Assembly (NCBI GenBank): GCA_031763025.1 | Contig: JASSKH010000005.1 | Coordinates: forward strand, 18,690,128 to 18,754,127 | Direction: 5' to 3' | Source of the DNA: Macrocystis pyrifera | Taxonomy: Eukaryota > Sar > Phaeophyceae > Laminariales > Laminariaceae | DNA: 64,000 bases | Shown here: piece by piece, positions 980-63,204 of the stretch | Layout of the letters: the number at the start of each line of letters is the position of its first letter | Numbering within the stretch: position 1 is the first letter of the stretch | Position numbers and translations under genes: made by a program | Notes under the pieces: generated by a model | The model's database searches: none | What the model was told of the DNA's origin: nothing | The model's input: only the letters and a program-made list of their open reading frames with translations

Positions 980-29575
<28,596 letters not shown>

Positions 29576-40000: not shown

Positions 40001-43000
40001 CTGTGCACTCGGCACTCTCCTTTTCAATAGACTATATTGATACTGCCTGCAATAAACTCGGGCACCTGGAGGGAGGGGGACTTAAACATTTGGTGGTTGC
40101 CCTATCCGCTTGTGCTACACAGCATAGTTCACTGTCCCACCGATACGTCGAAATCGAGACATGAACGTGGATTATAATTTGGTTTAGTTGTGTGCACTCT
40201 GTTCGACAACATGGAAGACGTAGCCAGGTGTCGATTTTGAGGCACCATGTGATTTAACGATCACGATTGGTCCGTGTACCGGAGGTATTGTAAATGTTCG
40301 TGGTGATTTGCGAACACTAAACACACTTGACGATTTTTTCTTACACTGAACCGGACGCGTCCAACCCCTCTCCCTTGGTTTATTCCTCACACGAATACAT
40401 CAATACGATGGAGACAGGTGGAGGTCATGGACGCGGGGCTAAGGCAGGATTTCGGGTTCAAGCACATCCTCTGGGTCTACTCCGGAAGGCGAGGTGTCCA
40501 CTGCTGGGTGGCAGACGACGCCGCAAGAGCTCTCACGAACGAGGGCCGCAGTGCTGTAGCTGATTACTTCAGCGTGGTGGCCGGCAACGACAACCAGGCC
40601 AAGAAGGTGACGGCCGAGTTCGATAAACCGATTGAAAATTTCCCTATAATGTGTTTTTTAGTTTGGTTGCCTCCGCCTTGGGGTTAGACTCTGCTTTGAC
40701 TGCAGGTGCTACGACCTCTAGAGCGCTTCGGTACAAAGGCGCGGTAACCCAACTCGTCTTTCGATACCCTGACAGCTGTTTCAGAGCTTCAAAGGAACGT
40801 CGGGGACTGCACGGTCCGAGGCAATGAGTTTGCTCGGAGATCGACGGTGATGAAAACCTCTTCTCTACTCTTTTCCACCATGGGCAGTTGCTATGAAAAT
40901 AATACTAAGTGTACTACTGTACGCTTATTCACAGTGTGAGACAAGGAATACAGACTATTCCTATACATGCCTCAGAGGTTGGCTTCCCGGGCTCACTGCA
41001 GTATTCCTGTTTGTATCCTCAAGTATCGTACGCTGGATGCGTGTTAGAGGTCAGGTCCTACCGTATGCCTATGGGTTATTACTGCTGTTCCTCCAGATAT
41101 TCCTGCGTCTCTACTCTGTGGATCTCTGGCGTGCTTTTACTTTGGGGTGCGTTCGCTAAAACTACATGTATATAATGTATTTGCTATGTACAGGTTAACG
41201 TGTTCATGCCAATACACCCTTCCCTCCGCCGGGCGTACGAGACACTCGAACCTTTGTTCCTCAAGCACGTCATCACGGAGGAGGTGGGTTGCATTTTCGC
41301 ATACTTGGAATTGCGTTTATGAGACATTCACGTCACCCTTGCGGCCGGAGAACGGTGACAGGCCACTGTACGTCATTGCGAGGCTGAAACGTTTCCGGGT
41401 TCGATGGACGCTTGAACGCTTGTGACGTTTGCGTCGATTTAGAAGGGCGTGGTGGGTACACTTGTTTAGCGTGTCCCTTTTTTGTCATTTTTTTTTTTGG
41501 GTCTACACTAGCTCAAGTAATTAACTAATTATTGTTACCTACCTATCCCTACCCCTACGTGTTTATCATCCAGGTTATCATGCACGTTGGTATACGATCG
41601 AAATCATTTTTTTTTTCCTAGCCGCGGTTACAAGTCTAGACCACCGGTGTAGTTTTGTTGGATGAAGCTGTTGGAAGCTCCGAGAAAGGCACTTCTACAC
41701 CAGTGGCGCATATTCGCGTGGTCCCAAATGCCTCTTTTGCGCTTGGTGCTTGGGGCTATCGAGGCTTTGCCGTTATTAGGAACTGTTGAAGCTGTTGCTG
41801 ACAGCGCCACAACCTCTCTCGCGACCGATGTTGGATGTTGAGCTTAAGGTACCTGATGCCATTTTTTTTTATGAAGGGTGAGGTGTTGTGCTGAAGGGCA
41901 TGGCGTTCCTCGACCAATCTCTACAGTCTTGGACTGTCTTTTTACTAGCTTCGTATGGCAGGTGCATGTCCTCGAGTCACCACGATTATTTCCCGTATAT
42001 ATCTCTATGGTCATAAGACTACGGCCATGCATGAGATCGAGTACATCTCTCCTATCGAGTACACCCCCCCCCCCCTGCTACCTGGTCGGTTTCCTCTGTG
42101 TTGGGTCGAATCAGGGACAAGGGCTTCTGTCAGACCCATCTCAGTGGGGGAAACTGCTCTCGACAGTGTCGGAGGACATTAAGGACCTTCTCGATTCCCG
42201 GTGGAAGGTCAGTTTTTTCTTCCGGCAGTATTTCAGTTCCACTATGCTCCGAAAGCGTACGATCGTGTACTACTTTTCTCTGCGAATAAGATGAGCGCTC
42301 GGAGTGAACATTATCAATACGTTCTTTTACCATCGTGGACACAATGTTCATCATCTTCATCATGTGTATTACATCATACTGCTGTGTGTACTGTGTGTGC
42401 GGCCTAGTATTGTATTATTGTATTATTGTATATTGTTGTTATTAACCCTCTAGGGACTTGAGAAGGGAAAACATGCCAATTCACAAGGACGATTGCAACA
42501 TCGGCCTTAGTAAGATACGTAGCCCGACCTGCTCGGGGTAGGGGATGTGTCTAACTACTGTGAGTGCAACTATTAAACACGTAAGGAGATATGCGACACG
42601 CGCACGGCATGACAATATCATGCTACTGCATGATGATACTTGCACTGTTGCGCGCTCTTTCTAGAAGGCTCGTGTACTATACCGCATTTATCGCTTACAA
42701 GGTTAGGTTATTGCACGTGGTCCCAGAAGGGTCAAGACGACGGCGAAAACATTTGGCAGTGTTAACTCGGCCGATTTACTCGCGGTCGACCTTTGCGAGG
42801 CCCTTAACTGTCGGCTGCCGCAGTCGTATTCCGGAGGTGCGAGTGTCCTAGTCTCGCCCTCAACGGCAACCCTGTTGCTTGCAATATTTTACCTGTTGCT
42901 TGCAATAGTGACCTGTTGCGTGCAATATTGCACCTGTTGCTTGCAATACTCTTCATATTGCTTGCAATACTCTACCTGTTGCTTGCAATATTGTACCTGG

Positions 43001-46000
43001 CACTATTTTGGACGATGTCTAGGTGTGGTCCAGCTTGCGGTTGTTTAGTTGTGTTGTTGGGTTGGATTCTCCCTCGAACAACGTGCCTGGCGCTGTTTTT
43101 TGTCTTTTTGCTGGGGTGAACAGATGGGAAAATCTTCCGAGGAGGAGAAGTGGGAGGAGCTGGTGGAAGAGGTGGAGAAGAGGGGGCGAAAGCAGCAGGC
43201 AAGCGCCGTTTACTGGTACCATTTACAGTGAAGCCGCGTCGCAGTCACGCTTTGATTGGACCAACCTAGCTTGGGTGTGCCCGGCTAGACTGCCTTCGTT
43301 CGCGTTCGCTTTTAGCGCCTTGGCCCTAACGCCCTAACCCTCAGTGTATCGATCAGCCAGTAGTTGACGCACAATACCACCTTCACCCAAGCCTCGTTCT
43401 GCTCATGTGCTCCAGTGAATGTCGAGATCACCTGTGCACCTGTGCAGTACTCCGTTGCATGGGGCTACCTCGAACGTTATTCCGTTATCTCCTAAGTGGC
43501 CGTGTTTGTGAATTTATTTCGTACAGTGGTGCCGTATGTACTGCTTTTTGTACTCGATGCATGCGATTTGAGCGGAATTAAAGTGCGCTCGTCGCGACGG
43601 TTCCTCATAAGTATTGGTACGTCTTTCTTGAAGTGCTCAGGAACCCCCGAACGGCCAGATACCTTTGCGTTTATTCGAGCTGAGTAAAGGTTTGCCCTCT
43701 AATATGTGTATATTATTTGTCGCTGCGCTTTTCCTTAACCTGTTTGGTGCACTGCGACATTGGGGGTTTCAATTCCGAGCTAGCACTCTTTCCGGAAAAA
43801 TAGGGACAGTTCGAGTACAAACATGAAAATAAACGGTTCCGTGCATTTCTGGACAGAGTGGTACTACTGAAGATACTGCTGTGCAGGATTGGCCTCACTC
43901 ACCCTGGCCCGTGGTTATTCTCCGTTTTTGCATCCATGCGTTGGAAAAAACAACAGGCTAAGAAGATGAAGGTTGGAGAAAGGTCTACCCCGGAACAGTG
44001 GCGGTACGAGGTGGTCTTCGAGCACACGTACCCTCGCCTGGATGTCAACGTTTCCAAGGGCAGGAATCACCTCCTCAAAAGCCCCTTCGGTGAGCCCGTT
44101 TTCAAAATCCCAGCGCTGTTGGCTTCACGTGAATCTCTCGTTGGAATGTGACTGATTGCTGCTGTGTAACCGTATTCTAGTCCGGCGGAGCATACAAGTA
44201 GCTTCTGAAGCGTTTGTTAATAGTACTCTTTTGATAGTGTATACCGTTGTCAAGAGCCGACATAAATTCCGGGACTTGGTGTTGAAAGGATGAGTGAAGT
44301 TTCGCTGTTGAAAAGAAAAAGCAGTCACCAACGCCAGGGTTGACGAAACCAAGACAACTGCGACTTGCTTACCAAATAGTTGCCGAAACTTCAAGCAATA
44401 GTGTGGGTCCAGTGTTCTACGTATACACACGAATATCGATATGGGGTGCTGGTCGGCGTGAGGACGAACGTGAGCATCGGGGTCGCACAATATATTGTGA
44501 AGATGTGCCACACGGTGTGGTGCTGCGTGTGTCATCTGTGCTTGTACAAAAGTTGCTTCCCTGCACGGTCCACTGCTCTTTCTCGCTCGTTCGATGCGCC
44601 CCTGAAATTTCTCGTGGTCGAGCACGCGTTGTCTTGCAACCGACGTCGGCTCTTCCCGCCCTTTTACCACAACCCTGACCCCTCAAAACAGCGGTGCACC
44701 CGAAGACTGGTCGAGTGTGTGTACCTATCGACCCAGCCAACGTCCGGGAGTTCGACCCTTTCACAGTGCCGACCGTAGGCGAGCTCGCGCGCCAGATCGA
44801 CTCGTACGACAAGGAACATGGGGCAGAGGTGAGCAGCGTGTTAGTGCGTTGAGGCTGGAGGTTCTGAAAGAACGCCTTTCAGCGCCGCGGATCCCCGTTG
44901 AGACGTGCCGGTTTTTGTGTCTCGTCGTTTATGACCCATTCTCGGCCTCATTTCGCCATCATGGGCCTGCCTGACGCCATATACGGAACTTTTTGGCACC
45001 GAGTTTAGGTTTGCTATGGTGCGGAGGTGGTCAAATATAATTTCTGCTGACTGTTGATAGGTGTAGGGTTAAGGCCACCTACAGTAGATGTACGTTTTAC
45101 TGCAACCCTTTTTTTAACTGTATAATAGTGTCTACCTGGTACAACTCAACAGGTTGAGCTTCTTGTTGACTGCCTGCACCCAATGACGTTACTCTCTTTC
45201 TTTGGATCGTAACTATTGACCCTCCTGATCGTGTTTAAAGACTTTTAAAGCTTGCCTTGTTTTTTTAACGCCCCTTGTCGTGGGACAGAGATGTAAACAC
45301 ACCTGTGTTATTATTTCTTCTCTTGAGGCCTTGCATTGTGTCGCATCATACCCAAGTTTTTATCATCTTTGTGCTCCGTCGGCAGTCGCACGCTTTCTTG
45401 ACTACGATAGCCTATATTTGTTTAGGTCTCGAGCTAAGGGCGTAGCGCTCGTAGATATCATTGCTATAGTTTCTCTACTAACAGCACTCTACTAACTGCC
45501 CATTCGGTGGCGGATGGTTTGAAGCTTTGAAGGTTATATACCTGGTGTGTCATTTTACTCGAAGCCTTGACACTGATTTTAGAGTGTAGCAGTGTGGGCC
45601 CTTGCTTCGAATCTCACTTATTTACTGCCACTTTTTTTTTTTTTTGTGGACCATGCCCAACGGAGACTGCACGCTCACTTATCGGTGAAAATGAGAGTGG
45701 GCGCAATTCGAAACGGGCCCACGGGAGAGATAGAAACTCTTATCTCACCGCGCGCTGAAAATGCATGTACTTTATTGCACCTATTCATACGTATGTACCT
45801 GTCGCGGAGAGGTGGAACAGGGGGGGGGGGGGGGGGGTGTACTCGATAGGAGAGATGTACTCGATCTCATGCGTGGCCGTAGTCGTTTGACCATAGACCC
45901 TCGCATCCCTACAATGCCGGGGCGGAGCATGTCGGGTTTTCACCGACCAGGCAGACATTGCTTGCACCAAGCGCGAAGCGTCGTGAGGTGTTGGGCGAGT

Positions 46001-47041
46001 CGCATGAAGGGTGAGCTGCATCCTACTAAGAACCGCTTGTGAGGCCGACTTGTATATGGATGACAGCTTCAATGAGTTAGTTTAATTTCCGGTGTAGCCA
46101 CTTCCAGAGACAGCAATGGGAGTACTATGTAACTGCCTCTTGGGTGCCTTACCTTGAACACTACGTGATACGATCAATTTCCTTGCGCAGAGTAAAGGTT
46201 CTTTACCTCGCACAAATGATCTAACCCGACGACCAGCTGTGGGCGACCGCCAAAAAAAAACAAACAAAAAAAAACGGTACCCTGGTTGTCTAGCTCACGT
46301 AGTGTGCGGCATGTTTTACAGTGTCGTTGCCAACCGACGCCAACCCAACCTATACGTACGCGGTGGCTTGGTAGGTGATCAAGATCAATTTCGTGGGTTC
46401 AAGTCTCATCGAGTGCATGCTCGTAGGGCCTTTTTCTTGCATAAAATAGATTGATCAGCGGAAAGCGCGAAAGCGTGAGATAGCTACATTCATTCGATGA
46501 AAATTGACGAGCAGTGGGAATGCTGAACCCTATGCGCGATAAAAAATAAAGGCACGTACCGGGGGGGGAGAAGGGAAGACACCTGTGACCACGGCTTGTC
46601 CAGATGGTCGTCGAGGATAAAACCTCTTACGAATTAGGCTGGAAAGTGAAAGTGATGAGTGAAAAAATAAATAAAAATAAATATATATATATATAATATA
46701 GATAAGCGGGCGGTGGATCAGGGGGGGGGGGGGGGGGGGGGGGGGGGAAGCCCCGTATCTAAAGCCATGACAAAATAGTAGTAAGTTAATAAGAGCTAAG
46801 GGCTAAAAGGATGAGCTAAAACAAATACCTGGTTCCAGGTATTGTTATTCTTACTTGCTGGTTTATCCCGACCCCGTCTGACTTTGTGCAGGCGAAAAAC
46901 GTCTCGGCAACGAACAAGACCGAGATGAAGACTTACGTTGCGCGGTTCGAGGACACCTTCCTCAAGGGCCTGTACAAGGGAATACGGGTCAAGCGAAGGG
47001 ACAGGGCGGAACAGATTGCTGCCGTAACAATGTCTTTTTAG
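37088..47041 (+). CDS. PRIM1: DNA primase small (catalytic) subunit, PriS/PRIM1 family
   Basis: The protein synthesises RNA primers as part of the nuclear DNA polymerase alpha-primase complex. Exons: 37088-37258, 38535-38674, 39165-39264, 39747-39893, 40418-40606, 41194-41283, 42115-42207, 43124-43198, 43957-44089, 44692-44828, 46892-47041. All phases agree and give 474 residues and a stop at 47039. Family landmarks in order: [14 protein letters not shown] and [33 protein letters not shown]; the metal-binding [15 protein letters not shown]; a zinc knuckle [66 protein letters not shown] with the third metal aspartate; and [18 protein letters not shown]. It is slightly longer than the human protein (420), mainly through a charged N-terminal extension before EAFSPELL and extra charged residues in exon 8. 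The start is the first ATG in frame; the intron after exon 8 uses a GC donor (CAG|GCAAGC). The catalytic residues are intact. Confidence 0.97.
42001..42075 (+). mobile_element. Short interspersed element S1 with C-run tail, copy 1
   Basis: About 63 bp beginning 'TCTATGGTCATAAGACTACGGCC', then 'GAGATCGAGTACATCTCTCC', ends 'TATCGAGTACA' followed by a run of 12 C (42064-42075). The inverted copy at 45820-45898 keeps the same sequence and tail. The size and the C-run tail adjoining a sequence like the LINE 3' end suggest a SINE-type element. It sits in primase intron 6, with its C-run about 40 bases from the acceptor of exon 7. Confidence 0.6.
42870..43008. repeat. ~20-bp minisatellite (ACCTGTTGCTTGCAATATT)
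   Basis: About six units of (T)ACCTGTTGCTTGCAATAYT stand in tandem in primase intron 7. They were probably generated locally. Confidence 0.88.
43780..43863. mobile_element. MITE family M2, copy 4
   Basis: Left end TAGCACTCTTTCCGGAAAAATAGGGACAG; right end TTTCTGGACAGAGTGGTACTA. The ends are imperfect complements of the kind seen at 27165-27254. It lies in primase intron 8. Confidence 0.55.
45820..45898 (-). mobile_element. Short interspersed element S1 with C-run tail, copy 2
   Basis: On the minus strand this reads 'TCTATGGTCAAACGACTACGGCCACGCATGAG', then the same GAGTACA end and a run of 18 C (seen as G at 45820-45837). It differs from copy 1 at only a few positions. It lies in primase intron 10. 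Confidence 0.6.
46540..46750. repeat. AT/G-run low-complexity block
   Basis: A GTACCGGGGGGGGG run, a (TA)n stretch at 46680-46702 and a run of 27 G at 46721-46747 stand in primase intron 10. The long G-run could be the complement of another C-tail, but no element body could be aligned. Confidence 0.5.
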
Positions 47042-49220: not shown

Positions 49221-52200
49221 ATGGGGTCGATCCAGCAGTGTTCTATATGCTTTGATGAGCTGGCAGAGCGTTTGACCGCGGCGCCTTGTGGACACGTCTT
49301 CCACACAGAGTGGTAAGCCAAGGGTGCCCCTCTCTCCTTGCTCTCTCTTGCTCTCCCTTGCTTTCTCTTGCCTTCTATCTTGCTCTCTCTTCCTCCTTAT
49401 AGCCGTAGACCCCTATCCTGCACACCTACACACCTACACACCATCCCTTGTGCGTACTTAGTGTTCGTGCCGCAAGCCTCGCCTCAGTTGATTGCGAGTT
49501 CGGACTCAATTCAATGCAGCTCATCTGTGTGCATCCACACTGCTCTACGATACAACTGACAAGGCAGCTGGTACAAACAGCAGCAATACCGGACTACTCA
49601 GTTACATTGAGATCGCCGCGAAACGTCGAAGTGTTTATTCAGAGACCCACCCACCTACAGAGCGCGATGACACTGCTGATGTATGGAAGTGCTGTAATCA
49701 GATACCCAGGATATATATAATATACGTGGAGATACCCAGGATATATATAATATACCTGGTGCACGTCTGTACGTAGAGCAGTAGTACACACACTCCATGT
49801 GCACAGCAGTACATAGCGACAGCACACAAGACAGCATGCGAGCACCCTTGGGATGGAGTTCCGAGAGTTCCGATCCGGTTTGACCCAAAACAAGGGGGAA
49901 ACGTGGAACTGCTGCTGCTGTACGTGCAAGAACGATGGGAATGAGGGGCGTGACAAGACACCTGCTTTATGTCGTCAAACTCCCATAATAAGTGCATTAA
50001 GCTACGTACAAGTACTACGTTGGTGGTTCTTCTACTTTTACTGTGTTCCAACAACACAAGTCTTAGGCCGTTTCCTATGCGGTTCGATTTCGAGCTTCAG
50101 ATTTGTATTTTTTTCGATCTCAAAATCGAATAACCCTACTTATGCAGTCCGATTATGCAAAATCCGACCGGAATTTTTTCGATTTGAGAATCCGATGACC
50201 CAAGTCGTCGGATTTTGGGCTAAAATCCGACGACTTGGGTCGTCAGATTGTCAAATCGAAAAATGGCATGCTCTCTAAATTCAAGATGTTATCCACGACA
50301 GCAAACAGCAGCAGAACGATCGATGAGTTGGATGGTGATACAGCTGTATAGCGACGTTGCTTCGCGCCCGACGCGCGGACGGCGCGTCCCTCCGTGGCCA
50401 GACTAGAGTCGGCTGGCGCGGGCTCGGGCCTAGAGACCAAGAGAAGAGCACTCGGCATGCGCCTCTCCGTGGATACGTACTCGTAGACTACACCGCAGCT
50501 GTACAGCACCAGCAGCAGCAGTCAAGTCACCAAATCCAACACAAAATACCAAGACAGGTTGATTCTAGCGCACTCGCCACATCTCTTCGCCACCAGACTA
50601 GAGGCAGTCAGCGTGGGCTCGGACGCTTGGGTCCTACGCGCAGGGCAGCGCACCCAGCGCGTCTCTTCGCGGCGCCAAATCACAAAAACAGCAGTTGGTC
50701 TTGGGGTTTGCTCGAATCTCTACACGCACAATAAATCTGATTTTTCCGCATAGGAAGGCCCTTTCGATTTGTCAAGCTCGTATCTGAAAATGCCATCGGG
50801 TCAAAATCTGAAGCTCAAAAATCGAACCGCATAGGAAACGGCCTTAGCATCGTATTCGCTATTAAGCGATGCGCGTCAGCGCAGAAAACTTGTGTAGTGG
50901 CTGGGTCGGATTGGGTCGGTGGGTGTGCTGTGGGCTGATTGGTTCCACCATCACCAACACCACTAACCACCCACCCACTACCCACATTCCGATGTTACAG
51001 GGACACTGGCACCGTCAGGAATGCGTCAAGTACCCGCGCATATACATACGACTTGGAATCAGAGTAAGGGATTTGCAACCGAGATCCGTATTTTTTAGTT
51101 GTAGGATGGTTGATGCAAACTTACAAGAATCCTGAGGGTGTGTCTTAACCCCCCCCAGATAGCATGGGAACGAACCGGATGGAATATTATTTGCTGCATG
51201 AATTGATGCTGATTGGTTGTGGGAAACGAATAGATTCAGTGCAGCCCGAGAAAAACTGTATATCTAGGAAGAGGAAGAAGAAGTGTTGCACCCCTTTTTC
51301 TTGTTTGGGAGGACCGAACGGCCCGACCGAACGGGAATATGGAGGATCTTGTTTGATGTAGATGGACACCACCGAAGATGGATGTGGACACCAATGTTAG
51401 GGGTGGGACTGAAATATTTTTAGACGTAAAAAAGCCACAAAAAATGTCAGCGGTCGTTATCTGGGAAAAAGAATCTTTAAGCAATTAACCAATCAGCGCG
51501 TGGGGAAAGAACGGACACGCCACAAAAAAACTCTTCAGGTGGTATCATATACCACGTACCAGGTACCAGGGTATGTCATCTATGGTACGAGAGGAGCTGC
51601 AGCGTGTCGCTCCAAAAGGGCGGAGCAGCACACAAAAAAAAAAACACCACGACGAGTGCTTGCGCAGCAGCGCACAAACCGGCGCGTGAGCGTGAGGGGG
51701 AATTACTGGTGGACCCTTCGCCTCGATGGCTGACAACCCGCAAGTGCAGCCCCCTACCGGGCCTGGTTGAAGGTGGATCTGCTGATCCTGATGCGGCTGC
51801 TGGCGGTACTGACCCAGCTGCTGCTGCTGCTGCTGCTGCAGCGGTGCAAGATGTTCCCATCCACAGCCATCGAGCCCGGTCGCGGCTGTCCTCCGCCCCC
51901 GCGATGCCACGGCGGACAACAGCATTCGCTCGGCACACGATCGCCGACGCCTCGTGGACAGTACGACCCGTACGCTGCAGATATGCCTCCCGATTCGCTT
52001 GGACATTTTTTTTTCCTTTTGCCCTTGACCGAGGTTCGTTCTGGTGTTTTCGAATAATTCCCCATCAAGAAATTGATTGTCATGGTACAGGTCCCGAAAA
52101 AGTGACTGAAAAGAGTCGATTTTTCGCCAGATCGTTCTCTACGTAGACTACGTCGATTCGACCGGGGTTTGTTTTGCTGTTTGCCACACATCCCAATGCA

Positions 52201-55200
52201 GAGTATGACTATGTCTACACACTACTCAAAGCACGACAGAGAGCAAGAGGCAGAAAAAAAACGAAAAAAAAAAAAAAGCGTATTTCTCCGCACCTTTCAG
52301 TCTATAAAGACGTCAATTTGTACTCCTGTGCTAAAAAAAAGCATGCGATCCGAAGGGTATGTGCCCTGTGTGGAGTGTCCGGATGAGGTCAAGACCGGCT
52401 CCATCTCCACCTGAGAGAAATATCAGATACAAGTTCACTACGCATCCGCACTAAAACCAAGTAGTTAGGGGTATGGCTGTAGTTTTATTTTTTCAGATTT
52501 TTTTTTTTTTTTTTTTGCTGGTCGGCTCGAATAGCCTGCCGCTTTTTTGGGTCAAACCAGGCCTCCAGTCCCACCCCTAAATGTGCTCTGGCATGTTCAA
52601 AAGATACCGTTCGTACTGATTCGGCTGGCAAGGCCCAGGATTCTGCATGGACCCAAACACGTTTTTTTTACAGGCACGGAACGAATGACCACGAACAGCC
52701 TCGTTCCGTTCCGCTCGTTCCCATGCTCTCTGGGGGGGGTTAAGACACGCCCTGAGCTTTCTAGTTTTTAGCCCTTTTTTGCCCTTTTTCGGGCCCAAGA
52801 AATGCTACCCATCATGGTGACGAAGTTTTTCCTCCCGCCCCATCTTCGACGACGACTCTCTAAGGGCCACTCCTAACGAACAAAAAAAATCACGATTCGT
52901 GAGATTTTTGTCGTGAATCGTGATTTTTTTATCACGACAAAAAAAATCACGATTCATGTCGCTAATTTTTCTAGCTTTTCCCTAAAAAAACAAAATCACG
53001 ATTCGTGACATTTGTCGTGTCTCAAAATACGCCTGATCAAGGCACTACTCAACCCACGCGAACCAACGGTATCCGAAGGTCGGTATAGGGGCATGGCAGA
53101 CCCTGCTTCGTACGCCGCTTGTGGACTACGGGCGGCTTCCCAAAGACACCGCTGGGCGCGGGCTAACGAGGAGGTTGTGGCCTCGAAATTTCCAGGAGAA
53201 GGAGCCACTGCTGGAAGACAAACGCGAAAATGACCTGAGGATGTCACAGGCCAGGCCTGGCAGACGGCCTGCGAGATGGAATCTCGCGAAACGAGCTTGG
53301 CCGACGGCCGGTGAAGTTGGAATCTCGCAGGCTGGGTCAGGCTTCGGCCCGTGATTCGAATATGTCACGGGCTGGGCCAGGTGCGGACGGCCCAGCCCGA
53401 CCTGGCCGTGCCCCACTCTCGAGAGTTGGCTCCACCCCCAGAAAACGTTGGGGTTTGAAATATCAGAATTTTAACTATTTGAAAATATCACGAAACGCGA
53501 CGTTTTTTTCGGCTTTTTTCGTTAGAACTGAAATGTCACGGATCGTGATCTTTTGGCATGCCAAAAAGTCACGAATCGTGATTTTTTTTTTTTCGGTTCG
53601 TTAGGAGTGGCCCTAAGAGGTATACCATCCGCCTGGAGAACAGCAACATTATAGCGACTGACATTGCTTCATCGGTGATGTAGCCATGGTGCCATGCCAT
53701 GCTCCCTTGAGTAAAATGAAACATTTTAGCGTTTTTGCGAGCTTTTTTTGCTACTCGCTCGCAACTTCGAGTACACGAAAACATCTCGTGAGTCGCTTTT
53801 GGGTGCCTACGACTGCCGTCGGGCGCACCCGATACCCTCAAACATCCCACCAAGAGCATCCCTCATTTTCCCGGGCTGTATTACGGGGAACCATAGTAAA
53901 TAGGACCAAATTTTGGTAGAAAAATAGGTAAATTTATAGGTTTTTGTGTGTACCATAGGTCCTATTAACTATGGACCACCGTAATAGTATCCTTCGAGGA
54001 GCTGTAGCTGTCCGCAAGTGAGGTGCAGTGCAGACGTTCAGTTGGGGGTTGCTTTGGGCCTCATTTCGTGCACCCCAATTTTCGACCAATTTCGACCACT
54101 GCATCACCTCTACGTCGAGATGTAGGCCTCTGTTGAGAACGGGCGGGAGATCAATCTCGAGAGAAACACAACCTGCTGTGATGAAGCTCTTTCTTCAACT
54201 GTCGAGTCACCGTCGCTCTCTGGTGAGCACAAACCAGCCGAAGTTCTAAACGCAGCGTCTTGAACTACTAGCCATGTGTTTTTCTGTTCAGATAAAAAAT
54301 CTAGATATTAGAGTAGTCGGAAACCCGGGAACGAGGGGACGCTTAGGTGCCAGCGTCCCCTTAAACGACGCGCGTCAGCGCAAAGACCTTGCATGGTGAA
54401 GTGGGGGCGGGCGGCGGGGGCGGGGACGGGGTAATACCAAATGATAGAGTGTTTGCGGCAGTGTTTTTTTTTGGTACATCCTTTCCCTGAAGTAAACACC
54501 GAATGTAGGGTTTGAGGCTGAATTTTATGGCAACCCGAAACCGGAACACGAAACAAGATTTTCCCTTCATCGTGTAGAAACCCCAGGGTATTGCCGTCGG
54601 TAGACATGTCATTGGACTATCCCCGATCACTGCCCAAACGTAAAAACCTGTGCTTTCAACACCCAACACCTACCACCGCCGATGATTCCTCGCCTCACAG
54701 GGCACTAGATGGCGTCAAACCTTCGAGGCCGTATGCCCCACTGCTCTGAGAGTTGAGAGTGCTCGCCACCAAGTGTGAGGGTCGTTGATGCTGTGTGGCC
54801 GGAGTTCTCGCTCGAGACATCGGAGCCTGCCCCGTTTCTGGCCGTTTTGTTTTTCAAGAGTATCCACCGGCCTCTAAACCGGGTGCGGTCATTTTCGAGT
54901 TTGACGCTGTTTTCAGGCGTATCTCCGAAGGGGGTGAGGTATTCCACGTACCCCCGGTGATAAAGTAACGGTCGACAAACAAAACATTTTTTTTCCCGCG
55001 GGTGTGGTATTGTAGAGGGGTGTGCTATTGTAGGGGGAGTGTGCCATCCTGTGTGTTATACCGTATAGCGTGTCGGTCTACTGAAAATGCAGACGCAGCT
55101 CTTACCAGGTAGTGTACTATTGATACTGTGTTCTTGTAATATTTTTGCATGGCGTGAGTGAAATTTCCACACCCAGGGCGGCACCATCTTGGCCTTATCG

Positions 55201-58200
55201 ATAGACCTTACGTCTCATGCGCATCATGCTATACAGGAATAACTCCTACTGTTGGAGTTTAGCACTCTCTCCGGGAGTAAGGAATATTTAATTATCATTA
55301 TGAATAGTTATTCGACCCTTTTAATTCCGGACATAGTGGCACCTGGTATGTATTGAGCACACTTAGAATACGGACATGGATAGCACAAGCAAACGCGGGC
55401 AGCCCTGTCCGAGTTCTGACCTATCCTTAATAGCGTAGAAGTTCGCCAGGGTATTCGTTATTTACAGATTCGCCTGGTACCTGGGATATATGTAGGTCCG
55501 ATAGCTACGTTTTTATTTAATACTTTTGGGTTAGGGGCCGGGCAAGCTGTTGTGCGAATTCGCATTTGGTGGCATGCCATAACTGGATTAGGGTGGAGGG
55601 TGCGTCGACGTGTCCACGATCGACGCTGCCCTGGTTACGCCGATAGTTGCGTGCCCATGTGGTGGGTGATGCGGTATCTATGCGGTATATTTCTGTCCTT
55701 GATCGATTTAGTGCCTGTTAGACCTATGCCAATGGCAACGCGAAGTATCAATAAAAAGTTTGAATTCCAAAGATCCCCGCCAAAAGTTTTTAGAACACGC
55801 TTCCGATGGGCACGTTTAGAAAAAAAAAAAGTTCCCAACTTTTGGAAAAGCCCGAAAAAAGCAAATCTGGGGCCGATGCTGGACCAAGATCGGCCTGAGA
55901 AAAACTCAGGCCCATCTTTGGTTCGAAGCGGCGAGATTCCGAGTCCTCGACAGACATCGATCGACAAAACCAACGAATGCGTCATGAATTCTGAACGGAG
56001 TGCGCTCGTTAGGCGCTCCGACCCACCCTTGGGTTACCGTCTTCACACAATGACCAGTGACGGGTGGCGGGCGCTGGCCAGGCGTACGATAAAAAAACAA
56101 TTAGCCGCTGGTGTGTACCAAACAGAAGACAAAATTGCTCGATCCGCCTCGAATAGCAAAAAACAGTTTTTTTTTTTTCAGGTTTGGGAGGATACCGCAG
56201 GACGCCGCCGTCAAGCTCTCGCCCCGTCGAGCATGTATCCACTTTCTATCTTCGATGCCGTCATCTATACTCGTTGGCCTTGCCCGACACCAAGCGGGTT
56301 GGCCGTGGGCTGAGTCTATTTCGAGATCGAGCATCTATCGTCGCGCGAGCTGATTTTTATCAGCGTGTTGACAATTTGGGACGAGAGAATACAAGTTGCG
56401 CCGCCTGCAGCCGTTAGAAAAAAAGGAAAAATCAAATATTTTCCCCCTTTTTTCCCGCAGCGGCGGTACTACGAGCATATTTTCGGCTGTTTGTTTCAAG
56501 CAATATTTTTGAAAGAAAACTTTTGAACTTCGCGTTTCCATTGGCATAGGTCTTATTTGGTTGTGTCAGTTTGTTGAGAAGCGCGGAGACTCGAGCCGGA
56601 CTTACAACTACTCAACACTAGTACTGTCGGCTGTAGGGCCCCCCCATCCTTGCTTGCTTGCTTGCCTACTTTCCTGCTGGTACTGCTCTTGACAAACATG
56701 TTTCTCTCTGTGTTTCGCTGTGTATTTCCGTGTATCTATGTTTGTTTGTGCCGATGCCTGTGCCGATATTTGTGTGTGTGCAGCATCACCCCATGGCATG
56801 ACTCAGGAGGAAACTGTCCAATGTGTAAGACCCCCATGCCGCGGAAGCTGCTGCGGCTATTTTTCGAGCCTCGGCAAGCACCTACGGGAGCCATCGAAGG
56901 GGGCACCGAGAGCAACCCCAACCCTAACCCACCGCTGCTGCTGCCTGAGTCTGAGGCCGGTGCTGAAACAGGGACTGCGGAAAACCAACCAGTGTCTGCG
57001 GAAATTACCGGTCTCCGAAGAGAGCTCGCGAGCACTAGAAAGGTACGGTACCTTCTATGGAGTGTTTTTTCGCAATCGTGCTGCTCTCCTTGCTTGTTGC
57101 ATGCATTGCACGCATTGCATGCATTGACACTCGGTACAGCAATAGTGCATGGTGGTCGTTTAAAAAAAAAAAAAATAGTAGCTCCAAGATCTCCGCATGT
57201 CGGCTGGTGCGTTTGCAATGCACTCGACGAGAACCATCACGACAAGCGCGAGTCTTGCGCAGTTCAAGCTTGAGCCTCCGTCCCTCAAGGCTCAAGACCT
57301 TGCCGGGGTTATACTCATACTATACATGGTACAATTCAGTATCATAAGAGCCCGAGCTTGCGCGAGTATACTTCGTATGACAGAAGAGCGTTGCCAGTTC
57401 TCCCGCAGTCGAGTCATCGAGGCCGATGTTCCTTTTCCCGTAATTCTATGTGCAGGACCGTTGTTGAACAAATTTCCCCATGATTTTGCTTTTTTTCTTG
57501 CAAAAAATCAGGAAAAGCAGAAAAAAACTAGAGCAGGAAATCTAATAGATGGTATATTTCCAGGGACGCTTGGCATTCCTCTTTCAGGAACCCCCCCCCC
57601 CCCGGGAAACCAGGAAAAACGAAAAAAAGCACTACTGTAGAAAAACAGAAAAAAAAAGCCTAGAAAATCAAGAATTTTCCTACAAAAAGTGAAGTTGTTC
57701 GATGTTAACGGCCCTTACCCTCCCTATTAAAATAGTTTCAATCGCGATCGGTGCCTGGTTGTGGTCTTGGTTTGTGTCGCGTCCTCTGTGGCCAGGTGAT
57801 AGCAGCCACTAAGGAAAATGCAGCTAACCATGCCTGCGCCATGGAGGAGTTGCGCACAACTGTAGGCCGCGTTAGGGCCGCAGCGGCGTTGGCGGAGATC
57901 GAGCAGGACGAGGCCATGAAGGCGGTCGAAGCTAGGCTGCAGACTACCAGAATCGAACTCGTGAGTTTGGTATTCGTATCATGGTATGTACTGTTGATCT
58001 CTTGATCTCTTCATCTCTTCATGTATAGCGCGTATATGGCGGAGGTTTTCGGCTGGAATGAGCCGTCGTGATGTTTGTGAGTGTTGGGAATTTGCCTCAC
58101 ACACTGTTCTATTTACCAGCCCGACTTGGACTTAAATTAGCGTCTCAAAATAAGAGACAAATGAGGGGTAGATTGACATTGGCATGCTTATTATATGGTG

Positions 58201-61620: not shown

Positions 61621-61856
61621 GAACCAAGTATATAGGTGACACCACGGCAGTAGAAATGTTTCGCAGATGAGAGCAGCCTACCGATAACGTACTTGTGCGG
61701 GTGTACCGTGAGAGCTGTATTCTTTTGGGCCATTGCGGGACGGTTGGTTGGGTTGATCGCCTGTTCTTTGGTCGACCTGAGTTGAAAAGTCTTGTATTGC
61801 CCAGACCCGCGCTATACTTCCAGTGTGACAGTACTCCGTGTGGCATGAACTACTAT

Positions 61857-61958
61857 TACGGGGGTTCAAAGTTAATAGGACCTATGGTATAATTAAAAAC
61901 CTATACATTTACCTATTTTTACTAACAAATTTGGTCCTATTTACTATGGTTCCCCGTA
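61857..61958. mobile_element. MITE family M1, copy 6
   Basis: TA-flanked; left end CGGGGGTTCAAAGTTAATAGG, right end CTATTTACTATGGTTCCCCG, with the CCTATTTTTACTAACAAAT centre seen also in copy 4. Confidence 0.9.
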
Positions 61959-62077
61959 ATATACATATATGCATTACGGTAGGGGCCATGGCAGTGCTAT
62001 TGTTCCATTGTTGTTTTACGTCGAAACGTTAGGGGTGTTTTCATTTTAGTGCTTTAAACGAACGTGTTCATAGCCAA

Positions 62078-62942
62078 GACCTATGCCAATGGAAACGCGA
62101 AGTCCGAAAGTTTTAAAAAAAATATTTCGCTTTAAAAAAAACAGCCAAAAATATCCTCGTACCGCCGCTGTGGGAAAAAAGGGAAAAAATGTTTGATTTT
62201 TTCTTCTTTTTTTTTTTCAACGGCTGCAGGCGGCGCAATTTGTTTTCTCTCGTTCCAAATTGTCAACACGCTGATAAAAATCAGCTCGTGCGACGATAGA
62301 TGCTCGATCTCGATATACACTCAGCCCAAGGCTAACCCGCTTGGTGTCGGGCAAGGCCAACGAGTATAGATGACGGCATCGAAGATAGAAAGTGAATACA
62401 TGCTCGACGGGGCGAGAGCTTGCCGGCGGCGTCCTGCGGTATCCTCCCAAACCTGAAAAAAAGCTGCGTATCCTCCCAAACCTGAAAAAAAGCCTGTTTT
62501 TTGCCATTCGACACGGATCGAGAATTTTTTGTCTTCTGTTTTGTACACACCAGCGGCTAATTGTTTTTTTATCGTACGCCTGGCCAGCGCCCGCCGCACG
62601 TCACTGGCCATTGTGTGAAGACGGTGACCCAAGGGTGGGTCGGAGCGCCTAACGAGCGCACTCCGTTCAGAATTCATGACGCAATCGTTGGTTTTGTCGA
62701 TCGATGTCTGTCGAGGACTCGGAATCTCGCCGCTTCGAACCAAAGATCGGCCTGAGTTTTTCTCAGGCCGATCTTGGCCCAACTTCGGCCCCAGATTTGC
62801 TTTTTTCGGGCTTTTCCAAAAGTTGGGAACTTTTTTTTTTTTTCTGAACGTGCCCATAGGAAGCGTGTTCTAAAAATGTTTGGCGGGTGTTTTTGGAATT
62901 CAAACTTTTTATTGATACTTCGCTTTCCCATTGGCATAGGTC
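62078..62942 (-). mobile_element. Harbinger-like element family H4, copy 2 (inverted)
   Basis: The same ends as copy 1 (GACCTATGCCAATGGAAACG and complement) in opposite orientation, flanked by CAA and TAA, a 3-bp duplication that has probably changed by one base. It carries an internal duplication (62445-62490, CAGGTTTGGGAGGATAC twice) not seen in copy 1. The minus-strand frame 62857-62321 keeps the same protein sequence as copy 1 along nearly its whole length. Confidence 0.88.
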
Positions 62943-63204
62943 TAATAGTGAAAAATTCATCTAAGCGTATGGAAACACTGTTGCTTGTTCGTGGTAAAGC
63001 TGTAACCCTTTAGATAACACACACACACCTGGGGACGAATATCCGGATTGGTGTGTTACTTATTTATCCTAAATAAGGGGAGCACCCACCACATCAATTG
63101 GTAGCTTTGGATATTTTTGGTCGATATTTTCCTAGAGGCGTAGAGGCATATGCAATTAGACGCGAGTCGACGAGGGAAGAAAGGGGGAAGGTCCTCTCGC
63201 GATT

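Follow-up and report, generated by a model that had tools for sequence, protein, structure and literature searches.

The window analysed here, a stretch of 64,000 nucleotides from the giant kelp Macrocystis pyrifera (contig JASSKH010000005.1), contains a copy of a LINE and two copies of a short element that we call S1, following the original prediction. The LINE copy is 5'-truncated and lies on the plus strand at 16755-19370; by BLAST it corresponds to positions 1633-4252 of L070, a copy of 4,252 bp from elsewhere in the genome, with 95.5% identity over 16755-19366, followed by TACG. It ends in AAATGAGTACG and a C-tail of 28 C (19371-19398), and a run of 11 C (16743-16753) stands one base before its 5' end, where, judging from the genome-wide pattern described below, it may have served as the target. 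The first S1 copy (42004-42075, plus strand) ends in CGAGTACA followed by 12 C, and the second (45826-45897, minus strand) is 96% identical to it over 72 nt. The prediction had described the ends of both S1 copies and of the LINE as a common motif followed by a run of C, and the sequence is as described in all three.

Other repeats occur nearby. A dispersed short repeat of the GGGGGACCATAGTTAATAGGACCTATGG type, whose core is partly palindromic and which looks like a MITE, is present in both orientations at 1926-2002, 16075-16147, 20474-20546, 26206-26282, 53908-53980 and 61852-61928; at another locus in the genome (L056), sequence similar to it interrupts retroposon fragments. A dispersed repeat of about 0.8 kb has two copies (3158-3993 and 50063-50845; 84-95% alike in the listed pieces), and inverted repeats link 55715-56554 with 62076-62948 in pieces of 315, 253, 116 and 65 nt that are 82-97% complementary and 5.5-7 kb apart.

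Extent and copy number of the retroposon

Most of the loci found through S1 extend further upstream when aligned, and many have a common 5' start. A consensus built from 12 full-length copies runs from GGGTTGGGTTGGCG to GAGTACA over 514 bp; an AT-rich leader, whose length varies, usually stands before it. Both window copies are parts of this unit, which rules out a SINE of 63 bp. By BLAST against the consensus, the first is a 5'-truncated copy of 60 bp (42004-42063, plus strand; positions 455-514, 96.7% identity) with its 12-C tail at 42064-42075, while the second continues upstream into a nearly full-length match of 513 bp (45838-46350, minus strand; positions 2-514 of 514, 97.1%) with a tail of 18 C at 45820-45837 that reads as G on the plus strand. 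Among non-redundant, 3'-complete copies, 28 of 98 begin within the first 9 positions and are full length, and the starts of the rest are scattered. S1 is thus the 3' end of a non-coding, 5'-truncating, SINE-like retroposon of about 514 bp, and the size of about 63 bp, which had seemed unusually small for a SINE, is not that of the element. The longest stop-free frame in the consensus spans 81 codons. One subfamily has the S1-type end, which contains ATCGAGTACA two times; other copies finish in GATAATGAGTACA, GACATGAGTACA and similar sequences.

The genome searched comprises 537,376,219 bases in 223 contigs. Exact matches to GAGTACRCCCCC were found at 19,016 sites (74 for a reversed-pattern control), retroposon heads with at most 2 mismatches at 7,132 (control 11), and exact S1-type ends and LINE ends at 3,825 and 2,542, respectively (control 0 for each). 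A sampled list of 76 sites, for which an exact tail of 8 C and the given next letters were required, is distributed over 34 contigs. The concern that S1 might exist as just the two window copies is removed by these thousands of copies genome-wide. Within the window itself, GAGTACRCCC with at most one mismatch gives 9 hits, which is not above chance (shuffles average 5.87 hits, and 15 of 100 have at least 9). On contigs C45 and C65, the GAGTACRCCCCC sites recur at steps of about 19-24 kb, which suggests that these elements sit within large tandem units.

The partner LINE and the shared 3' end

The LINE reference, L070, is a genomic copy with a broken frame, in separate pieces of which Pfam recognises Exo_endo_phos (E = 1.2e-9) and RVT_1 (E = 2e-9 and 3e-14); it therefore combines, within one element, the endonuclease and the reverse transcriptase of an APE-type LINE. 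The nearest solved chains to one of its pieces are those of L1 ORF2p (best E = 3.3e-6), which is weak evidence on clade. In the window copy, which is broken as well, RVT_1 is found at 18010-18585 with E = 1.8e-5 and 25 bits, under the curated cut-off of 29.6, and none of the three longest LINE copies seen (window, L069 and L070) has an unbroken frame. C-tails are present, and 19 of 20 3'-complete LINE copies are 5'-truncated; 5' truncation with a 3' tail is also characteristic of APE-type LINEs. The last frame of the window LINE (ORF 18853-19365) reaches a TGA at 19363-19365 that overlaps GAGTAC, so that hardly any 3' untranslated region remains in the LINE and the end that it shares with the retroposon is coding on the LINE side.

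Between the 514-bp retroposon and the 4,252-bp LINE copy, significant similarity is confined to the 3' terminus. The terminal alignment covers about 73 bp and scores 30 for the S1-type end and 33 for the GATAAT-type end (the latter a typed composite), compared with maxima of 16 and 15 among 2,000 dinucleotide shuffles each, and of 14 and 12 among 406 other LINE windows. In the window LINE, the common end occupies 19305-19370 and includes the end of the LINE frame; the retroposon consensus matches 19305-19369. A common end of 6-8 bases, as had been read from the window, is accordingly too short, and the SINE/LINE partnership then judged plausible gains support from the longer one. Single folds of one LINE end and two retroposon ends predict a UGGUC/GACUA hairpin, with energies no better than those of shuffles (z of -1.2, 0.3 and 0.5). 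A conserved 3' hairpin was dropped as a candidate, the consensus having no pairs and shuffles equalling every covariation measure.

C-runs and nested insertions

Copies of both elements mostly sit beside C-runs. In a set of 118 elements (match reaching to within 25 nt of the 3' end, 40 bp of upstream sequence present, near-duplicates removed; several elements can derive from one locus), a run of at least 5 C lies at most 40 bp upstream of the 5' junction, in element orientation, in 97, and a run of at least 5 G in none (0/118); the background frequency of such C-runs is 2.9% of window 40-mers. Loci L009-L038 were chosen by S1 similarity and are not a random sample. The 30 anchors L039-L068 were defined by pattern, and 22 of them were counted, 18 with a run of at least 5 C; left out, as far as the element matches show, were L042, L047, L049, L051, L052 and L066 (no match at the anchor end) and L043 and L063 (duplicates). 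A held-out set was drawn from the 46 previously uncut sites of the 76-site list, 40 of which have an element by BLAST (L080, L087, L090, L104, L108 and L113 do not and were excluded); there, a C-run is present in 36 of 40 elements and a G-run in 0 of 40, with L109 and L110, both counted, looking like a single duplicated locus. Genome-wide, there are 2,060 exact retroposon heads; a C5 run ends at most 23 nt upstream in 1,498 matches (3 of the 100 listed are double counts), and a G5 run in 3. As in LINEs that target homopolymers or microsatellites, insertions lie at simple sequence and on one strand only (C, not G). This is a preference and not a strict specificity: the adjacent C-run is absent at both retroposon copies of the window, at the full-length LINE copy L070, and in 21 of 118 elements overall and 4 of 40 held-out ones.

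Many of these C-runs are the tails of other copies. In 32 of 118 elements and 14 of 40 held-out ones, the 70 bp upstream contain the 3' end of another element, as against 126 of 20,000 in the control, by a permissive flag that allows one mismatch and leaves a few cases doubtful: L020 (LINE 4190), where the printed flank holds only a C-run and ACTGCACTGC, and L082, L114 and L116, where no clear element end is seen in the 40 printed bases. The orders seen in the chains include a retroposon after a LINE tail and a LINE after a retroposon tail. On contigs C125-C129, 43 C-run heads were counted by eye, and in 3 of them fewer than 20 nt separate the C5 match from an exact LINE end upstream. What is newly noted here is that copies of the LINE and the retroposon adjoin C-runs, and that these are often the C-tails of earlier copies.

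Target duplications

If insertion proceeds by target-primed reverse transcription at a C-run, the few nucleotides that separate the C-run from the element should be found again behind the C-tail, and a duplication was defined in this way. Duplications of at least 3 nt were found in 8 of 48 elements (mean 1.9 and maximum 7 in 2,000 shuffles) and of at least 4 nt in 6 of 48 (mean 0.62, maximum 5 in 2,000 shuffles); at a length of at least 5 nt the count is 3 of 48 (mean 0.22, maximum 3), which shuffles also reach. Examples are AACACCGC at L060, TTCAT at L102, TACAC at L116 and TACA at L053. A general duplication test gave 10 of 152 (mean 1.79, maximum 5 in 100 shuffles), in which L046 and L065 match in the AT-rich leader alone. 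Short duplications thus weakly exceed those of shuffled sequences and are seen in a minority of copies; their scarcity would fit copies that are old and duplications made of C alone. At L086, the two copies of an 8-nt repeat enclose the 5' C-run as well, one standing outside it and the other immediately behind the C-tail, and the C-run there looks like part of the insert.

Class membership

Like a SINE, the retroposon is short (514 bp), non-coding, dispersed and of high copy number, and its 3' end is common to a partner LINE, with alignment scores of 30 and 33 against shuffle maxima of 16 and 15. Its A- and B-box-like matches are not above those of shuffles (single-letter, not pair, shuffles), so a Pol III promoter is not indicated. 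Pol III would also be expected to terminate at the 23 consecutive T of consensus positions 78-100. ARAGORN found no tRNA in 11 loci. Rfam returned 10 rows in 7 loci, 0 at the gathering score and 0 overlapping the retroposon; the two rows with E < 0.01 name isrG in L022, where they fall on a CAG repeat that is not part of the element. A Pol III head was dropped on these three negative searches, within which the earlier failure to recognise a tRNA, 5S or 7SL head is upheld. The retroposon appears to work like a SINE. We do not claim strict SINE membership, given the chance level of the Pol III box matches, the lack of a head known to ARAGORN or Rfam, and the internal stretch of 23 T. A DNA transposon or MITE was rejected, and with it the larger DNA transposon with inverted ends to which S1 might have belonged, as the retroposon has no terminal inverted repeats (score 5, equalled or bettered by 498 of 500 shuffles).

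Relation to known elements

New copies of the Zepp LINE of Coccomyxa reportedly land in the poly(A) tails of older ones. Zepp forms clusters of nested elements (PMC3446292), as the kelp elements do; the latter, however, lie in C-tails and are spread across many contigs. The nearest relative seen in print is RTEX-N1_Ec32 of Ectocarpus, a non-autonomous brown-algal element of about 600 bp with more than 6,000 copies, described as the most abundant single family there; its 3' end is conserved with autonomous RTE-X LINEs, and its authors could not find the origin of its 5' region (PMC12477816). According to these authors it may be a SINE, and they grouped it with LINEs since a Pol III promoter is part of the SINE definition in some classifications (PMC12477816). 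We liken it to the kelp retroposon by description only, and neither a C-tail nor landing at C-runs comes up in the passages devoted to it (PMC12477816).

Common 3' ends are also known from the SINEX-3_CR / L1-1_CR pair of Chlamydomonas (about 80 nt of the LINE 3' end) and from SINEs and L1 elements of maize and sorghum (about 50 nt) (PMC3747384). The kelp pair differs in that its tail is C and the common stretch is coding up to the LINE stop codon; in addition, no covarying hairpin was found in it, whereas one is reported for the maize and sorghum group (PMC3747384). A simple repeat as landing site is known from Togen, a microsatellite-specific LINE; the target named in its account is (TG)n, with no C homopolymer, and the LINEs described there have a restriction-like endonuclease, whereas the kelp LINE has an Exo_endo_phos domain (PMC4640811). 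In the literature searched (titles and abstract openings, with most subscription journals outside the scope), no C-tailed or C-run-targeting LINE or SINE is described. The word 'SINE' occurs 0 times in the main text of the giant kelp genome paper (PMC10498591), and 'SINE' and 'transposable' occur 0 times in the available text of PMC12116465.

Discussion

By comparing the two elements at their ends and at their insertion sites, we consider it probable that the retroposon, which shares the 3' end of its LINE, is LINE-dependent, that this APE-type LINE targets C-runs, and that the C-tails of old copies become landing sites. The dependence on the LINE is inferred from the common 3' end. The RNA of the retroposon would end in a relative, about 73 nt long, of the LINE 3' end (that is, of its last codons, its stop codon and GAGTAC), and then in C residues. 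The LINE protein, with its APE-type endonuclease and reverse transcriptase, would recognise this common end; the endonuclease would nick genomic DNA at a C-run, and the exposed end of the G-rich strand would prime on the C-tail of the RNA. The RNA would then be copied, often stopping early, which would account for the 5' truncation. Each insertion would leave a new C-tail and turn old copies into new landing sites, so that head-to-tail chains of LINE and retroposon would result; the pair may be active at present. More generally, and with only a slight leaning in its favour, we propose a self-seeding pair, consisting of an APE-type LINE and a non-Pol-III parasite: their C-ended RNAs would insert at C-runs by pairing of the C-tail with a nicked G-run, each copy thereby becoming a landing site for the next, and the recruitment signal would be the LINE's last codons and stop codon, carried by the parasite as non-coding sequence.

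The 5' C-runs might instead be made at insertion, by the reverse transcriptase jumping, once the element is finished, onto the C-tail of another RNA or by untemplated addition, with the chains as by-products at unselective sites. This would also give chains of different elements, and it agrees with the repeat at L086 and with the fact that the C-run abuts the element in 26 of 95 non-full-length cases with a C-run. On the other hand, 1-10 nt separate the C-run from the element in 61 of the 95, which is not expected of jumping, and repeats outside the C-run are rarer at equal thresholds than duplications between the C-run and the element: at least 4 nt in 2 of 123 (shuffled mean 0.9) as against 6 of 48 (0.62), and at least 5 nt in 1 of 123 (0.135) as against 3 of 48 (0.22). 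We therefore regard insertion with C-runs made on the spot as unlikely.

It is still less likely that S1 terminates a second, autonomous LINE family with an as yet unseen body, of which the 514-bp unit would be an internally deleted form. Such a LINE would explain why the retroposon end resembles the LINE end and why its copies are 5'-truncated as those of the LINE are, but one 5' start is common to 28 of 98 copies and 7,132 heads are found genome-wide, long frames are absent from the consensus (at most 81 codons of 176), and no significant LINE similarity exists outside the 3' end; moreover, no long element in which a reverse transcriptase is linked with the 514-bp body was noticed in the small sample of fetched loci. 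No evidence was found for a DNA transposon or satellite unit with a coincidental common end, which can practically be dismissed, given the lack of a terminal inverted repeat, the spread of the 76 sites over 34 contigs, the 5' truncation and variable C-tails, and a shared end far above shuffles.

If the reading of a LINE-dependent retroposon that lands at C-runs is true, each copy of the pair would be a possible target for the next. The brown algae, complex multicellular organisms whose transposons are little studied, would gain a concrete LINE with its non-autonomous partner, and the rule that the tail equals the target would become testable with C in place of A. The pair may also be a source of some of the long C-runs and chained repeats that complicate assembly and annotation.
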